From: Candidatus Eisenbergiella stercorigallinarum
GTDB taxonomy: Bacteria > Bacillota > Clostridia > Lachnospirales > Lachnospiraceae
DNA length: 33,911 bases
Assembly: GCA_019120525.1 (NCBI GenBank)
Contig: DWUW01000154.1
Span: forward strand, 1 to 33,911
Direction: 5' to 3'
This document shows positions 27,350 through 33,747 of the stretch, piece by piece (position 1 is the first letter of the stretch; every line of letters begins with the position of its first letter). Made by a program: the position numbers and the translations under genes. The notes under the pieces were generated by a model. That model saw nothing but the letters and a program-made list of their open reading frames with translations, searched no databases and was not told the origin of the DNA.

Positions 27350-27440
27350 TCTCCGCGGCAGCCGCCGGACGGATATGCAGAGACCTCTCCGCCCGGCCCC
27401 GCCGCCCGCAGGAATCAAACAATCAGGAAAGGAAACTATC

Positions 27441-28640
27441 TTGCAGCCATTAAATACCCCCTATTTTCATATTCAGGAAACGGATCTGGACAAGGACGTT
27501 TCCATTTTAAAGCAGGCCCTGACCGACAACTGGGGAAACTGGATCGTGGGCTATTCCGTAAAAACCAATTCCCTTCCCTGGCTTCTGTGCTACATGAAGG
27601 AGCAGGGCTTTTACGCGGAAATCGTCTCCGGGACGGAATACCGGCTGGCAAAAAGGCTGGGCTTTCCGGATGAACAGATCATCTATAACGGGCCGATCAA
27701 GGAAAAGCAGATTTTCACCGACATCCTTCTGGCGGGCGGCCTGGTGAACCTGGATTCCAGCGAGGAGCCCGTATGGCTTTCCGGGCTTTCCGCCCGCTTC
27801 CCCGACAGGACCTTTTCCGTGGGCCTGCGGGTCAACTGCGACATCGCCTCCCTCTGCCCGGAGGAAGTGCTTGTCGAGGAGGAGGGAGGCCGCTTCGGCT
27901 ACTGCTATGAAAACGGCGCGCTCGCCGAAGTCATCCGTTCCCTTCGCGCTCTTCCCAACGTGAGGATCGCCGGCCTGCACCTGCACTCCTCCACCCAGTC
28001 CCGCACGGTGAACGTCTACGCCGCCCTGGCCCGCACGGCGGTAAAAATCGCGCGGGAATACGACCTGAAGCTTTCCTATGTGGACATGGGCGGCGGCTAT
28101 TTCGGAGGCCGGGACGACAAGCCTGACTACCGGGACTATTTTCCCGCCATCTGCCGGGAGCTTCGTGCCGCTTTTAACCCGAAGGAAACCATCCTCATCG
28201 CGGAGCCGGGCGTCAGCCTGATCTCCCGCGCCACCACCTTCGCCACCACCGTCCTGGATGTGAAGCACATCCGGAACCACGTTTTTCTGGTGACGGACGG
28301 AAGCCGCACCAACTTAAATCCCCTGGTCACCAGGCACGTATATCCGCACCATATCGAATACGCGGACGCGCCGAAGGGCCGCCCGACGGTTCCCAGCCAG
28401 TGGGTGACCGGCTTTACCTGCATGGAATACGACCGCCTGTTTGAGATCAAGGACGGCCCCGCCCTGAAAAAAGGCGACCGGATCATCTACGATACCGCCG
28501 GCGGCTACACCATGTGCCTGAATCCTCTTTTCATCCATTATTTCCCTCCCGTCTGGGTGACGAAACGGGACGGAAGCCTGTTCAAAGCCAGAGAGCAGTG
28601 GGATGTGGAGGAATTCATGCAGAAAAATTATGTAAAATAA
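27441..28640 (+). CDS. PLP fold-type III decarboxylase (diaminopimelate/ornithine decarboxylase-like) in the pse operon
   Basis: 399 residues if started at TTG 27441, which has AGGAAAGG eight bases upstream; the in-frame ATG at 27375 has no good site. The alanine-racemase barrel has the PLP lysine in GYSVKTN (K41), GLHLHSS (179-185), MGGGYFGG (216-223) and IAEPGVS. The C-terminal domain has CMEYD (327-331) where LysA-type enzymes have a Cys-Glu-Ser-x-Asp motif, so the substrate pocket differs. It lies between pseF and pseI with about 100-base spacers and no strand change. It may make an amine or amino acid used to modify the nine-carbon sugar, but it is not a known pseudaminic acid pathway enzyme. 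Substrate unknown. Confidence 0.85.
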   Translation: MQPLNTPYFHIQETDLDKDVSILKQALTDNWGNWIVGYSVKTNSLPWLLCYMKEQGFYAEIVSGTEYRLAKRLGFPDEQIIYNGPIKEKQIFTDILLAGGLVNLDSSEEPVWLSGLSARFPDRTFSVGLRVNCDIASLCPEEVLVEEEGGRFGYCYENGALAEVIRSLRALPNVRIAGLHLHSSTQSRTVNVYAALARTAVKIAREYDLKLSYVDMGGGYFGGRDDKPDYRDYFPAICRELRAAFNPKETILIAEPGVSLISRATTFATTVLDVKHIRNHVFLVTDGSRTNLNPLVTRHVYPHHIEYADAPKGRPTVPSQWVTGFTCMEYDRLFEIKDGPALKKGDRIIYDTAGGYTMCLNPLFIHYFPPVWVTKRDGSLFKAREQWDVEEFMQKNYVK

Positions 28641-28641
28641 C

Positions 28642-28729
28642 GCTGTCAGAGCCCCCTGCAGGCCGTACCTGCGCGAATCCCGCCCGGCAGTCCGTGCCCT
28701 GCACGGAAAATGCCCGGAGCTTTGACAGC
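28642..28729 (+). promoter_or_regulatory. Branched inverted-repeat structure in the decarboxylase-pseI gap
   Basis: An outer 11-bp stem joins GCTGTCAGAGC (28642-28652) to GCTTTGACAGC (28719-28729), with one G-U pair. Inside are GCAGG-CCGTA-CCTGC (28658-28672) and CCGTGC-CCT-GCACGG (28692-28706). The AGGAG site of pseI (28736-28740) lies just outside the outer stem. It could be a translation control element or an RNA-processing signal. Confidence 0.6.
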
Positions 28730-28749
28730 CGGACAAGGAGATATGCTTC

Positions 28750-29802
28750 ATGAAAAAACAGTTTACCATCGGTTCCCGCAGCGTGGGAGAAAACTGCCCC
28801 GTTTTCATCGTGGCGGAAATGTCCGCCAATCACCTGCAGGACTATAACCGGGCCGTGGAAATCATCCATGCCGCGAAGGAGGCCGGAGCGGACGCCATCA
28901 AGCTGCAGACCTATACTGCCGACACCATCACCCTGGACTGCGATTCCCCGGATTTTCAGATCAACGAGGGAACTGTCTGGGACGGCACCACGCTTCATAA
29001 GCTGTATGAGGAAGCCTATACCCCCTGGGACTGGCAGCCGAAGCTGATGGAGGAAGCGAACCGGCTGGGACTGGAGTGCTTTTCCTCCCCCTTTGACGCC
29101 ACGGCGGTGGACTTCATGGCTTCCATGAACATGCCCGCCTACAAGGTGGCCTCCTATGAGATCACCGATCTTCCCCTCATCCGCCGGATCGCCCGCCTCC
29201 ATAAGCCCGTGATCCTGGCGACGGGCGTGGCGTTTCTTACAGACATCGAGCGCGCCCTCGCGGTCTGCCGGGAGGAAGGAAACGAAGAAGTGCTTCTGAT
29301 GAAATGCGTCTCCGCCTACCCCACTCCCTATGAGGATATCCACCTGAACATGATGCCCACCCTGGGCCGTACCTTCGGCTGCCTCACCGGCCTGTCCGAC
29401 CATTCCATGGGAAGCGCCGTGGCCACCGCCGCCACGGCCCTCGGCGCGCGGATGATCGAAAAGCACCTGACCCTGCGCCGGGCGGACGGCGGCCCGGACG
29501 GCTCCTTTTCCATGGAGCCGGAGGAATTCGCGGAAATGGTGCGAAACATCCGCGCGGTGGAAAAGGCGCTTGGCGATTCCGATTACCACCTCACCCCCGT
29601 TCAGGTAGTGGAGCACGGCGACTGCCGCTCCCTGTTCGCGGCGAAGGATATCGCTGAAGGGGAGACGTTTACGCCGGAAAACGTCCGTTCCGTCCGGCCG
29701 GGGAACGGGCTGCATACCATGTATTATGAAAAAATTCTCGGAAAAAAGGCGGCCTGCGCCATTCAGATGGGGACGCCGATGAAGTGGGAGCTGATTCGGT
29801 AA
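28750..29802 (+). CDS. pseI: PseI: pseudaminic acid synthase (NeuB family)
   Basis: 350 residues. It should condense 6-deoxy-AltdiNAc with phosphoenolpyruvate to give pseudaminic acid. The NeuB barrel has IVAEMSANH (20-28), DAIKLQTYTADTI, ECFSSPFD, KVASYEI, ATGVAF, KCVSAYPTP and GLSDHSMG. A C-terminal SAF antifreeze-like domain runs from about 290 to 350 (LFAAKDIAEGE, MGTPM). The EMSANH form is closer to PseI than to NeuB, as I recall. ATG 28750 has AGGAG nine bases before it. A long inverted repeat with inner hairpins lies in the gap upstream, and a terminator follows the stop at once. It is the last gene of the pse operon. Confidence 0.94.
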   Translation: MKKQFTIGSRSVGENCPVFIVAEMSANHLQDYNRAVEIIHAAKEAGADAIKLQTYTADTITLDCDSPDFQINEGTVWDGTTLHKLYEEAYTPWDWQPKLMEEANRLGLECFSSPFDATAVDFMASMNMPAYKVASYEITDLPLIRRIARLHKPVILATGVAFLTDIERALAVCREEGNEEVLLMKCVSAYPTPYEDIHLNMMPTLGRTFGCLTGLSDHSMGSAVATAATALGARMIEKHLTLRRADGGPDGSFSMEPEEFAEMVRNIRAVEKALGDSDYHLTPVQVVEHGDCRSLFAAKDIAEGETFTPENVRSVRPGNGLHTMYYEKILGKKAACAIQMGTPMKWELIR

Positions 29803-29808
29803 AGTTAT

Positions 29809-29840
29809 GGAGCCGGCTGATGACCGGCTCCTGCTTTCTT
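29809..29840 (+). terminator. Intrinsic terminator after pseI
   Basis: GGAGCCGG (29809-29816), a 7-base loop, and CCGGCTCC (29824-29831) form a perfect 8-bp stem, followed by TGCTTTCTT. It starts seven bases after the pseI stop. It may also act on the convergent toxin transcript, though the other side is less U-rich. Confidence 0.85.
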
Positions 29841-30099
29841 AATCGTCATAGTGTCCCAGACAGGAAATAATATAAATGATCCCGCCCTGCTCATAGTAAA
29901 CAATGCGGTTGGTTTCGTCAATACGACGGCTCCACAGGCCGCTCAGGCTGGCCCGCAGCGGCTCCGGCTTACCGATCCCTTCACAGGGACTTCTCTGAAT
30001 ATCCTTGATCAGCGCATTGATCCGTTTCAGCGTTTTTTTGTCCTGCGTCTGCCAGTACAGGTACTCGCTCCACGCCCGATCCTCCCACAACAGCCTCAT
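29839..30099 (-). CDS. yoeB: Txe/YoeB-family toxin (ribosome-dependent mRNA endonuclease)
   Basis: 86 residues. YoeB toxins enter the ribosomal A site and cut mRNA. The sequence has LLWEDRAWSEYLYWQ, GKPEPL, LSGLWSRRID and RIVYY. The residues equal to E. coli YoeB E46, R65, H83 and Y84 are all present at the same numbers, so the toxin should be active. The start overlaps the antitoxin stop (ATGA), which couples the two genes. Its partner is a RelB/DinJ-like protein rather than the YefM type that E. coli YoeB uses. Confidence 0.93.
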   Translation of the reverse strand: MRLLWEDRAWSEYLYWQTQDKKTLKRINALIKDIQRSPCEGIGKPEPLRASLSGLWSRRIDETNRIVYYEQGGIIYIISCLGHYDD

Positions 30100-30365
30100 T
30101 CGTCCACCTCTATCAGATCATGCTCGGCGAAATGCGCCTTGCCAGTCTTTACATCCTGCATGACGCTCTCCAGGTGGCGGAGATTGCTTTCCGAGTAAAA
30201 CGGATCAGCCGAAACCTCAAACGGTATGCGGTACTCTCTGCCGACCTTCTTTGCGAATATCGTAAAGGCCGCGCTCATGGAAAGGCCCATCTCGGTACAG
30301 GCCCGTTCCATTCTCTTCTTAACATCTTCATCCATCTTAATATTTACATTGACCATGTGTGCCAT
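30096..30365 (-). CDS. RelB/DinJ-family antitoxin
   Basis: 89 residues. The N-terminal ribbon-helix-helix (about 4-45: VNVNIKMDEDVKKRME, then MGLSMSAAFTIFAKK) should bind the operon promoter and repress it. The C-terminal part (EVSADPFYSESNLRHLE onwards) should wrap the toxin. ATG 30365 is chosen for its AGGAG eight bases upstream; the frame is open to 30422 across the promoter, which rules out the longer form. It is transcribed from a strong promoter at 30390-30418 together with yoeB. Autoregulation by the antitoxin and toxin complex is expected from the family. Confidence 0.92.
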   Translation of the reverse strand: MAHMVNVNIKMDEDVKKRMERACTEMGLSMSAAFTIFAKKVGREYRIPFEVSADPFYSESNLRHLESVMQDVKTGKAHFAEHDLIEVDE

Positions 30366-30389
30366 ATAGAACACTCCTTTCCCACCCAT

Positions 30390-30418
30390 AGTATATGCAA
30401 ATAGGAAGAAAAATTCAA
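30390..30418 (-). promoter_or_regulatory. Promoter of the RelB-YoeB operon
   Basis: TTGAAT (30413-30418), a 17-base spacer and TATACT (30390-30395) on the minus strand. The start of transcription should be near 30383, leaving a leader of about 18 bases with AGGAG. It overlaps the open frame upstream of the antitoxin ATG, which supports the chosen start. Confidence 0.82.
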
Positions 30419-30462
30419 GCATTTTTCTTTACTTTTTCTGTAAATACTGTTGTACCTGACAC

Positions 30463-30523: not shown

Positions 30524-32419
<1,896 letters not shown>

Positions 32420-32489
32420 CGTAATCTTCCTTTCTTTACCGGCATTCCGTCGTTGGGCACGCCCTCACGACATGTCCTGCCAGACAGAA

Positions 32490-32513
32490 ATGCCCGCCGC
32501 ATCCGGCAGGCAT
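32490..32513 (-). promoter_or_regulatory. Intercistronic hairpin between HMA gene and ATPase gene
   Basis: In minus-strand RNA, ATGCCTGCCG (32504-32513) pairs with CGGCGGGCAT (32490-32499) around a GATG loop, 10 bp with one wobble. No U-tract follows. It may protect the short HMA message or partly stop transcription, giving more metal-binding protein than pump. Confidence 0.65.
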
Positions 32514-32536
32514 CCGTCCACAGCGACATTTTCCGA

Positions 32537-32755
32537 TCAGAGGAAAATCTCGCAGTCGTCCTCTACCTTTTTGCAGTTCTTACGGACCTCCGGCATAACG
32601 GCCTTCGGATCCTGCCCCTCTTCAAATTCCACGATCATCTTCAGCGTCATGAAATTCACGGTCGCGTCCTTCACGCCCGCCGTCTTCTTCGCGGCTTCCT
32701 CCATCTTATTCGCGCAGTTGGCGCAGTCCACGTCGATTTTATAAGTCTTTTTCAT
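32537..32755 (-). CDS. Stand-alone HMA domain metal-binding protein
   Basis: 72 residues, one ferredoxin-like HMA domain. The metal loop is DCANCA with C11 and C14, close to the DCxxC of the N-terminal domains of ZntA/CadA. VNFMTLKMIVEF is the second strand. It probably hands Zn or Cd to the ATPase encoded downstream, which lacks this domain. C-terminal C61 and C68 and D66/D67 may add ligands. It has an AAGGAG site about 12 bases before ATG 32755 and a consensus promoter at 32812-32840. Confidence 0.93.
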   Translation of the reverse strand: MKKTYKIDVDCANCANKMEEAAKKTAGVKDATVNFMTLKMIVEFEEGQDPKAVMPEVRKNCKKVEDDCEIFL

Positions 32756-32782
32756 GATATCTGTTTTCTCCTTTTCTTTAAC

Positions 32783-32802
32783 AATTAAGCAATTATTTAA
32801 TT
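32783..32802. promoter_or_regulatory. Putative ArsR/SmtB-type operator
   Basis: AATTAA-8 bases-TTAATT, an AT-rich inverted repeat placed just after the start of HMA operon transcription. This is the usual kind of place and composition for SmtB/CadC-type operators. The exact family consensus is not matched, so the call rests on position and symmetry. Confidence 0.5.
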
Positions 32803-32811
32803 TATACCCTT

Positions 32812-32840
32812 ATCATATGCCACATTTGCCCCTTCGTCAA
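32812..32840 (-). promoter_or_regulatory. SigA promoter of the HMA/ATPase operon
   Basis: TTGACG (32835-32840), a 17-base spacer and TATGAT (32812-32817) on the minus strand, near consensus. Transcription should start near 32805, directly at the AATTAA/TTAATT inverted repeat. Confidence 0.85.
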
Positions 32841-32878
32841 CAGCTTTCATTCCACTTCTTCCGAACGGGCAATAAGTA

Positions 32879-32892
32879 TTCCCAAATGGGAA
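32879..32892. promoter_or_regulatory. 14-bp palindrome between the divergent metal promoters
   Basis: TTCCCAAATGGGAA, arms TTCCCA and TGGGAA around AA. It lies 17 bases upstream of the regulator's -35 box and about 40 bases upstream of the HMA -35 box. It could be a site for the AraC half of the fusion regulator or for another repressor. Confidence 0.45.
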
Positions 32893-32909
32893 AGACCTCC
32901 GGATTTTTT

Positions 32910-32938
32910 TTGCAGGATCCTGCCGGATATGATACAAT
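32910..32938 (+). promoter_or_regulatory. Promoter of the ArsR-AraC gene with palindrome in the spacer
   Basis: TTGCAG (32910-32915), a 17-base spacer and TACAAT (32933-32938) with TGA before the -10 (extended form). The perfect 12-bp palindrome GCAGGATCCTGC (32912-32923) overlaps the -35 box and spacer, a good place for autorepression. Confidence 0.7.
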
Positions 32939-32939
32939 A

Positions 32940-32974
32940 ATTGCGCGCGGCACAATGCCTGCGCGCAGCGCAAT
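32940..32974 (+). promoter_or_regulatory. Structured leader of the ArsR-AraC gene with two competing pairings
   Basis: One fold pairs TGCGCGCGGCA (32942-32952) with TGCC-T-GCGCGCA (32956-32967) around CAA, with one bulged T. The other pairs ATTGCGC (32940-32946) with GCGCAAT (32968-32974). The two share bases, so only one can form fully. The flanking sequence is nearly the same as in the pseG leader. Confidence 0.6.
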
Positions 32975-33018
32975 CCAGAAAGGGAAACGGCAGCAGGCGC
33001 TTCAGAACGGAGGTTCCC

Positions 33019-33747
33019 ATGTCAGAAAACAAACTACCTCACGACCATGGCCAGAAAATCGAACAGCAGACGGAAGAAATGCCCAGCGTGGATAATTTTC
33101 AGACCGTCGCGGAAATTTTCAAACAGCTTGGGGATGGAAGCCGGATCCGGATCTTCTGGCTCCTGTGCCACTGCGAAGAATGCGTTATCAACCTTTCCGC
33201 CCTGGTGGAGATGAGCAGCCCAGCCGTCTCCCACCACCTCCGGCAGCTGAAGGCCGCCGGGCTGATCGTCAGCAGGCGGGAAGGCAAGGAGGTCTATTAT
33301 AAGGCAGCGGAAACCGACAGGGCACAGCTTCTGCACCACATGATCGAAGATCTGGTACAGATCGCCTGCCCGTCCGCCCCTGAAAAGGAAATTCCCTGCC
33401 ATAACGGCGGCCAGGCCGAACTGATCCGCTCTATCCACGACCGCCTGACGCAGAATCCGGGACAGCGCTTCACCATTGAAGAGCTGTCCCGGGAATATCT
33501 GATCAATACATCTACTCTGAAATCCGTATTTAAGGCCGTCTATGGCCAGCCCATCGCCGCCTACATGAAGGAATTCCGCATGCACAGGGCCATGGAGCTT
33601 CTGCGCGGAACCGATATGCCCATTTCTGATATCGCGGCCGCCGTAGGATATGAATCCGCAGGCAAATTCACCAAAGCTTTTCAGGATGTCGCCCACGTCC
33701 TGCCTTCCGAATACCGAAAGCAGTTCCTCCGCGGGGAAATCCGATAG
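33019..33747 (+). CDS. ArsR-AraC fusion metalloregulator
   Basis: 242 residues. The N-terminal half (about 25-115) is an ArsR/SmtB winged helix: FKQLGDGSRIRIFWLL, SSPAVSHHLRQLKAAGLIV and REGKEVYYKA. Possible metal ligands are C50, H51, C52 and C55 in LLCHCEEC, D100/H106/H107 near the last helix, and C117, C127 and H128 in the linker. The C-terminal half (about 135-240) is a complete AraC domain with two HTH units (FTIEELSREYLINTSTLKSVF and PISDIAAAVGYESAGKFTKAF in shortened form). ATG 33019 has GGAGG nine bases upstream. It is divergent from the HMA/ATPase operon and should regulate it. Joining a repressor-type sensor to an activator-type domain is unusual. Confidence 0.92.
   Translation: MSENKLPHDHGQKIEQQTEEMPSVDNFQTVAEIFKQLGDGSRIRIFWLLCHCEECVINLSALVEMSSPAVSHHLRQLKAAGLIVSRREGKEVYYKAAETDRAQLLHHMIEDLVQIACPSAPEKEIPCHNGGQAELIRSIHDRLTQNPGQRFTIEELSREYLINTSTLKSVFKAVYGQPIAAYMKEFRMHRAMELLRGTDMPISDIAAAVGYESAGKFTKAFQDVAHVLPSEYRKQFLRGEIR

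Follow-up and report, generated by a model that had tools for sequence, protein, structure and literature searches.

An ArsR–AraC fusion gene beside a heavy-metal ATPase in Lachnospiraceae: likely origin by deletion and two candidate operators at the pump promoter

How could a metal-sensing repressor and the DNA-binding part of an activator come to be joined in one polypeptide, and what might such a protein do at the promoter of a metal pump? Metal makes ArsR proteins let go of DNA, whereas AraC proteins are activators that bind to tandem direct repeats close to the −35 element. The question is raised by a 33,911-nucleotide stretch of DNA from Candidatus Eisenbergiella stercorigallinarum (contig DWUW01000154.1), called here the window. 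A first-pass annotation had described in it an ArsR sensor and a complete AraC domain in one chain. The gene is divergent from genes for a small HMA-domain protein and a P1B ATPase.

One open frame with two DNA-binding domains

The genes of the locus and the parts of the fusion are as follows.

33019–33747, plus strand: arsR-araC fusion gene, 242 aa and stop (open frame; HTH_5 and HTH_18 above curated cut-offs)
33019–33378, plus strand: ArsR/SmtB-derived part, residues 1 to about 120 (identity to the ArsR of locus L047; residue conservation)
33376–33402, plus strand: fusion junction and disordered linker, residues about 120–128 (DNA alignments with relatives; pLDDT)
33403–33744, plus strand: AraC DNA-binding domain with both HTH motifs, residues 129–242 (HTH_18, L047 identity, model)
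32537–32755, minus strand: small HMA-domain protein, 72 aa, probable metallochaperone (PF00403, 36.6 bits, cut-off 24.8)
30524–32419, minus strand: P1B-type heavy-metal translocating ATPase, 631 aa (TIGR01525, 557.8 bits, cut-off 346; TIGR01512 cadmium family, 502.9, cut-off 313.5)

A frameshift giving two proteins, named beforehand as the alternative that would speak against a single chain, is ruled out by one open frame: positions 33019–33747 of the plus strand are translated into 242 aa with no internal stop, and the ATG is preceded by a good Shine-Dalgarno sequence, GGAGG. Profiles of both families exceed their curated thresholds. The ArsR/SmtB winged helix occupies residues 30–104 (NCBIfam HTH_metalloreg, 85.3 against a cut-off of 55; Pfam HTH_5, 44 bits against 22, residues 40–83) and the complete AraC DNA-binding domain residues 129–237 (HTH_18, 76.4 bits against 33.6, residues 157–235, covering profile positions 2–80 of 80; HTH_AraC, 38.6 against 26.6). 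In the AlphaFold2 model both domains are complete and confident (mean pLDDT 90.5), the AraC domain has seven helices, residues 120–128 form a disordered linker (pLDDT below 50) and the relative placement of the two domains is not fixed (pTM 0.51). SmtB and CzrA were found as fold matches of the ArsR domain. Both domains are ordinary members of the ArsR/SmtB and AraC/XylS families; the N-terminal effector/dimerisation domain of AraC, present in the intact AraC proteins of relatives, is absent from the fusion.

Conservation of potential metal ligands was assessed across 108 loci of separate, fused and arsR-only classes. All three keep H8, H10, C50, H51, C52, C55, H106, E110 and C117, with C52 in 35 of the 48 fused loci. 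Thus the CHCEEC cluster (residues 50–55), earlier proposed as a candidate sensor, is present and conserved in every class, together with the N-terminal H8/H10. The second proposed sensor, the linker CPSAPEKEIPCH, fared less well: its C117 is retained, but its Cys/His cluster of C127 and H128 is not conserved across the 108 loci, which rules these two residues out as a conserved sensor, and they lie in the fusion scar.

Two candidate operators at the ATPase promoter

The intergenic region contains the following elements.

32812–32840, minus strand: hma-ATPase promoter TTGACG-17-TATGAT (promoter scan 10/12; −35/−10 conserved in relatives)
32909–32938, plus strand: candidate fusion-gene promoter TTTGCA-18-TACAAT, extended −10 (promoter scan; similar −10 region in relatives)
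32782–32803, unstranded: candidate ArsR operator CAATTAA-n7-TTTAATTt (pattern scan; also present in relatives, whether or not these carry araC)
32859–32890, unstranded: candidate AraC-type operator TTCCGAACGGG + TCCCAAATGGG, direct repeat with a 21-bp period, 23 bp from the −35 (pattern and cross-locus scoring)

Alignment of intergenic regions across the genus gave one block common to all loci and another restricted to those bearing araC. The common block is the palindrome CRATTAA-n7-TTTAATYG, a short way downstream of the −10 in the hma promoter, and the window copy at 32782–32803 is the sole site in the window at no more than 2 mismatches (0.05 expected). The palindrome is near-universal, every class of locus having one, and its position makes it a candidate ArsR repressor operator.

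The direct repeat has the consensus TTCCRWWYGGGC and a period of exactly 21 bp. The window copy matches 21 of 22 consensus positions (0.04 sites with one mismatch expected in the window) and is the best such site in the 2.83-Mb genome, where other matches are about as frequent as in the backward control. Across loci, scores peak at spacing 21 where araC is adjacent or fused, with no peak in araC-less loci. At a threshold of at least 18/22 the repeat occurs in 18/19 adjacent, 24/42 fused and 0/17 araC-less regions, and in about 0.1–0.2% of shuffles; at 17 or more with a position limit it is found in 49/61 araC-bearing and 0/17 araC-less loci, the remaining 12 of the 61, all fused, having no scorable repeat at the expected position. 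The association of araC with the repeat is strong in description and not in formal phylogenetic statistics, since the motif was first spotted in this genus and then scored across other, related loci, and a phylogenetic contrast test, with only two independent contrasts on well-supported branches, was not significant. One fused clade (L016, L021, L024, L031, L033, L035, L036, L038, L040, L041) has a weakened first copy and a consensus that has moved to something close to TTCTAAAYGGATTA, which would be in keeping with a drift in what DNA its AraC domain prefers.

Measured from the −35, the repeat begins at 23 bp in 17/19 adjacent loci and in 24/25 of the fused loci that could be scored; measured from the start of arsR, it lies anywhere between 8 and 244 bp away. 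The DNA separating the −35 from the repeat is not conserved (mean 0.35–0.38 bits, against 1.1–1.4 in the repeats). The repeat therefore belongs to the pump promoter. Its near end is about 18 bp from the −35, which fits an AraC site for an upstream (class I) activator, though position alone is no proof of activation. Repression and activation had been suggested earlier for both divergent promoters; separate candidate operators do flank the hma-ATPase promoter, in support of a repressor combined with an activator, but the AraC sites are phased to this promoter and not to both. TTCCCAAATGGGAA, taken earlier for a palindrome, proved to be one copy of the direct repeat, and an inverted repeat at about 32941–32975 is restricted to this window. 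The latter is GC-rich (ATTGCGCGCGG...GCGCAGCGCAAT), lies in the leader of arsR and has no counterpart in the intergenic regions aligned from relatives; it is possibly a leader hairpin.

We consider it probable that the gene is a deletion-born fusion which represses the pump promoter from the palindrome until metal lifts the block, and activates it through the AraC part on the direct repeat. Judging from family and site, in the absence of metal the ArsR part would sit on the palindrome downstream of the −10 and block the promoter. Metal of the Zn/Cd/Pb type, bound by the conserved Cys/His set (H8/H10, C50-C52-C55, C117), would make it leave, and the AraC part on the 21-bp repeat would recruit RNA polymerase and activate the pump genes. 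Repression and activation of one promoter would then be the task of one protein here and probably of two in relatives. The two DNA elements and their phasing, as well as the fusion frame and its likely precursors, come from sequence comparison; from these we infer binding, metal response and metal identity, activation, and the use of both sites at once or in turn.

It is unlikely, in our opinion, that the AraC domain merely gives the repressor another foothold, with the fused dimer bridging palindrome and repeat in a small loop which metal opens, and with no activation. The elements do lie on either side of the promoter, about 82 bp apart centre to centre, and the distance from palindrome centre to first repeat is fixed at 63–69 bp in nearly all scored loci, but this is equally accounted for by phasing to the intervening promoter, and the spacing is identical where ArsR and AraC are separate proteins. 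Since araC-less relatives keep the palindrome alone, a loop is unnecessary for repression; moreover, the repeats lie upstream of the −35, the usual site for AraC-type activators.

Origin and recurrence of the fusion

The nearest ArsR halves (95–96% identical) are non-fused. In four sister genomes (L047, L049, L051, L056) arsR has its normal end, and a separate gene for an AraC of 333–339 aa comes next at a distance of −4 to +26 bp: in L047 and L049 arsR has 121–122 codons and a 333-aa AraC starts 17–26 bp downstream, and L051 and L056 show a 4-bp overlap of the two genes. Residues 1–115 of the fusion are 96% identical to the stand-alone L047 ArsR, and its AraC domain is 89% identical to the C-terminal domain of the intact L047 AraC. 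At the DNA level the window follows L047 arsR up to about 33376 and then the 3′ third of L047 araC. About 680 bp are missing between them, and therefore the arsR tail is in frame with the AraC interdomain linker. Comparative evidence suggests that loss of these 680 bp between arsR and the co-oriented downstream araC produced the fusion gene. Deletion between short repeats is a likely route, because the joint falls within CCTGAAAAGG, which DNA alignments show both in the tail of arsR in L056 and in the linker of araC in L049.

The window is nested inside the four intact relatives with tree support of 99/90 and 100/99; nesting is not backed by the AU test, in which placement of the window outside them gave p 0.36. 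Grouping with Mediterraneibacter fusions was not rejected either (p 0.09), and the window and these fusions may share a single origin. The HMA and ATPase genes (30524–32755) are closer to L051/L056 (96–97% and 91–92%) and the ArsR part (33019–33378) to L047/L049 (95–96%, against 85–87% for L051/L056). Because the nearest relatives differ in this way, the locus may be a recombinant mosaic.

The lost segment comprises a beta-barrel and a long helix and is the sensor/dimerisation part of an AraC protein; linker was joined to linker. Pfam has no named family for it, and Foldseek matched it to full-length regulators of the ToxT, Rns, CsvR and CuxR type and to cupins. In the fusion, an ArsR dimer would take the place of AraC's own barrel and dimerisation domain.

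As the window genome is a MAG (377 contigs, 82% complete, 5.75% contaminated), it is conceivable that reads from an arsR and an araC, really two genes, were collapsed across the short shared repeat by assembly or within the population. The joint does lie in a shared sequence of about 10 bp, the window ends 164 bp past the gene, and 0/12 other genomes searched in the genus have a fused locus. We regard such an artefact as quite improbable, as the junction is in frame and joins linker to linker, the lost AraC N-domain was not found elsewhere in the genome assembly, and 47 other loci hold equivalent fusions, one of them (L030) in Oscillibacter sp. ER4, a record without a MAG label. No relative of the fusion was found among the viral contigs searched.

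The AraC half is under purifying constraint, with dN/dS of 0.12–0.16 against 0.11 between two intact relatives, though part of that history precedes the deletion. That it is a decaying leftover of an araC-inactivating deletion, with the ArsR repressor alone at work, we consider very improbable: the gene has no fused counterpart in its genus, it has lost AraC's own sensor and dimerisation parts and its second repeat copy is one mismatch off consensus, but besides this low dN/dS its HTH regions match those of intact relatives, the repeats themselves are kept, and other fused lineages retain both domains.

In Lachnospiraceae, Oscillospiraceae and other Clostridia the locus exists as arsR alone, as arsR with adjacent araC and as a barrel-less fusion. 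On a tree of 75 loci (222 columns) the fused state changes 10 times, and at least 6 changes between fused and adjacent are forced by well-supported branches. A single origin of all fusions was rejected on the same tree (one fused clade, p-AU 3e-66); the fused rows L017, L020, L022 and L025 may have one common origin. Gain and loss of the barrel are indistinguishable from the tree alone, and loss is a simpler reading than repeated gain because homologous barrel domains (E 6e-52) occur in both of the separated groups with adjacent genes. In an outgroup-rooted AraC tree with long branches some fused rows stand at the base. Replacement by recombination is possible.

We propose, tentatively, a recurrent one-protein metal switch, in which a metalloregulatory repressor domain repeatedly captures the neighbouring AraC activator domain by deletion, and the product would repress without metal and activate with metal from a second operator. 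If true, this adds a metal sensor that activates besides derepressing. Gut Clostridia contain one locus in separate, fused and arsR-only states, and its DNA shows the operators that go with them. Here one can test how two regulators merge into a single protein, and also why, since even as separate proteins both seem to serve one promoter.

Relation to known regulators and flanking genes

With ArsR/SmtB metalloregulators of the CadC/SmtB type the fusion has in common the winged-helix fold, the Cys/His-rich N-terminus and alpha-3, and a candidate palindromic operator at a divergent metal-ATPase promoter. It differs from them in having CHCEECVIN where SmtB and CadC have the metal box ELCV(C/G)D (PMC1665450), in the absence of the alpha-5 D-x-H motif (H106/E110 being conserved), and in the presence of the conserved C-terminal Cys117 and of the AraC domain. 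Like AraC/XylS activators, it has a complete seven-helix, two-HTH domain and a candidate tandem direct-repeat site upstream of the −35, but an ArsR domain stands in place of the usual N-terminal effector/dimerisation domain. Such a domain is present in most, not all, members of the family, MarA/SoxS-type proteins being without one. For XylS at Pm two 15-bp direct repeats have been described (PMC5481539).

The two-gene arsR and araC loci beside hma-ATPase in Lachnospiraceae and Oscillospiraceae share the neighbours, the two operators and the spacing, yet they encode two proteins, the AraC with its own barrel domain; we found no published description of this arrangement in the open literature searched. 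Both operator types are known ones. In these open papers, which do not extend to most subscription journals, we found neither the pairing of ArsR and AraC domains nor its repeated emergence, nor a promoter with the two elements.

Further along the window, judging by translation only, two small overlapping genes at 29839–30422 (minus strand) resemble a YoeB/RelE-type toxin and a RelB-like antitoxin, and a decarboxylase-like gene at 27375–29802 (plus strand) is followed, within that interval, by a NeuB/PseI-like synthase.
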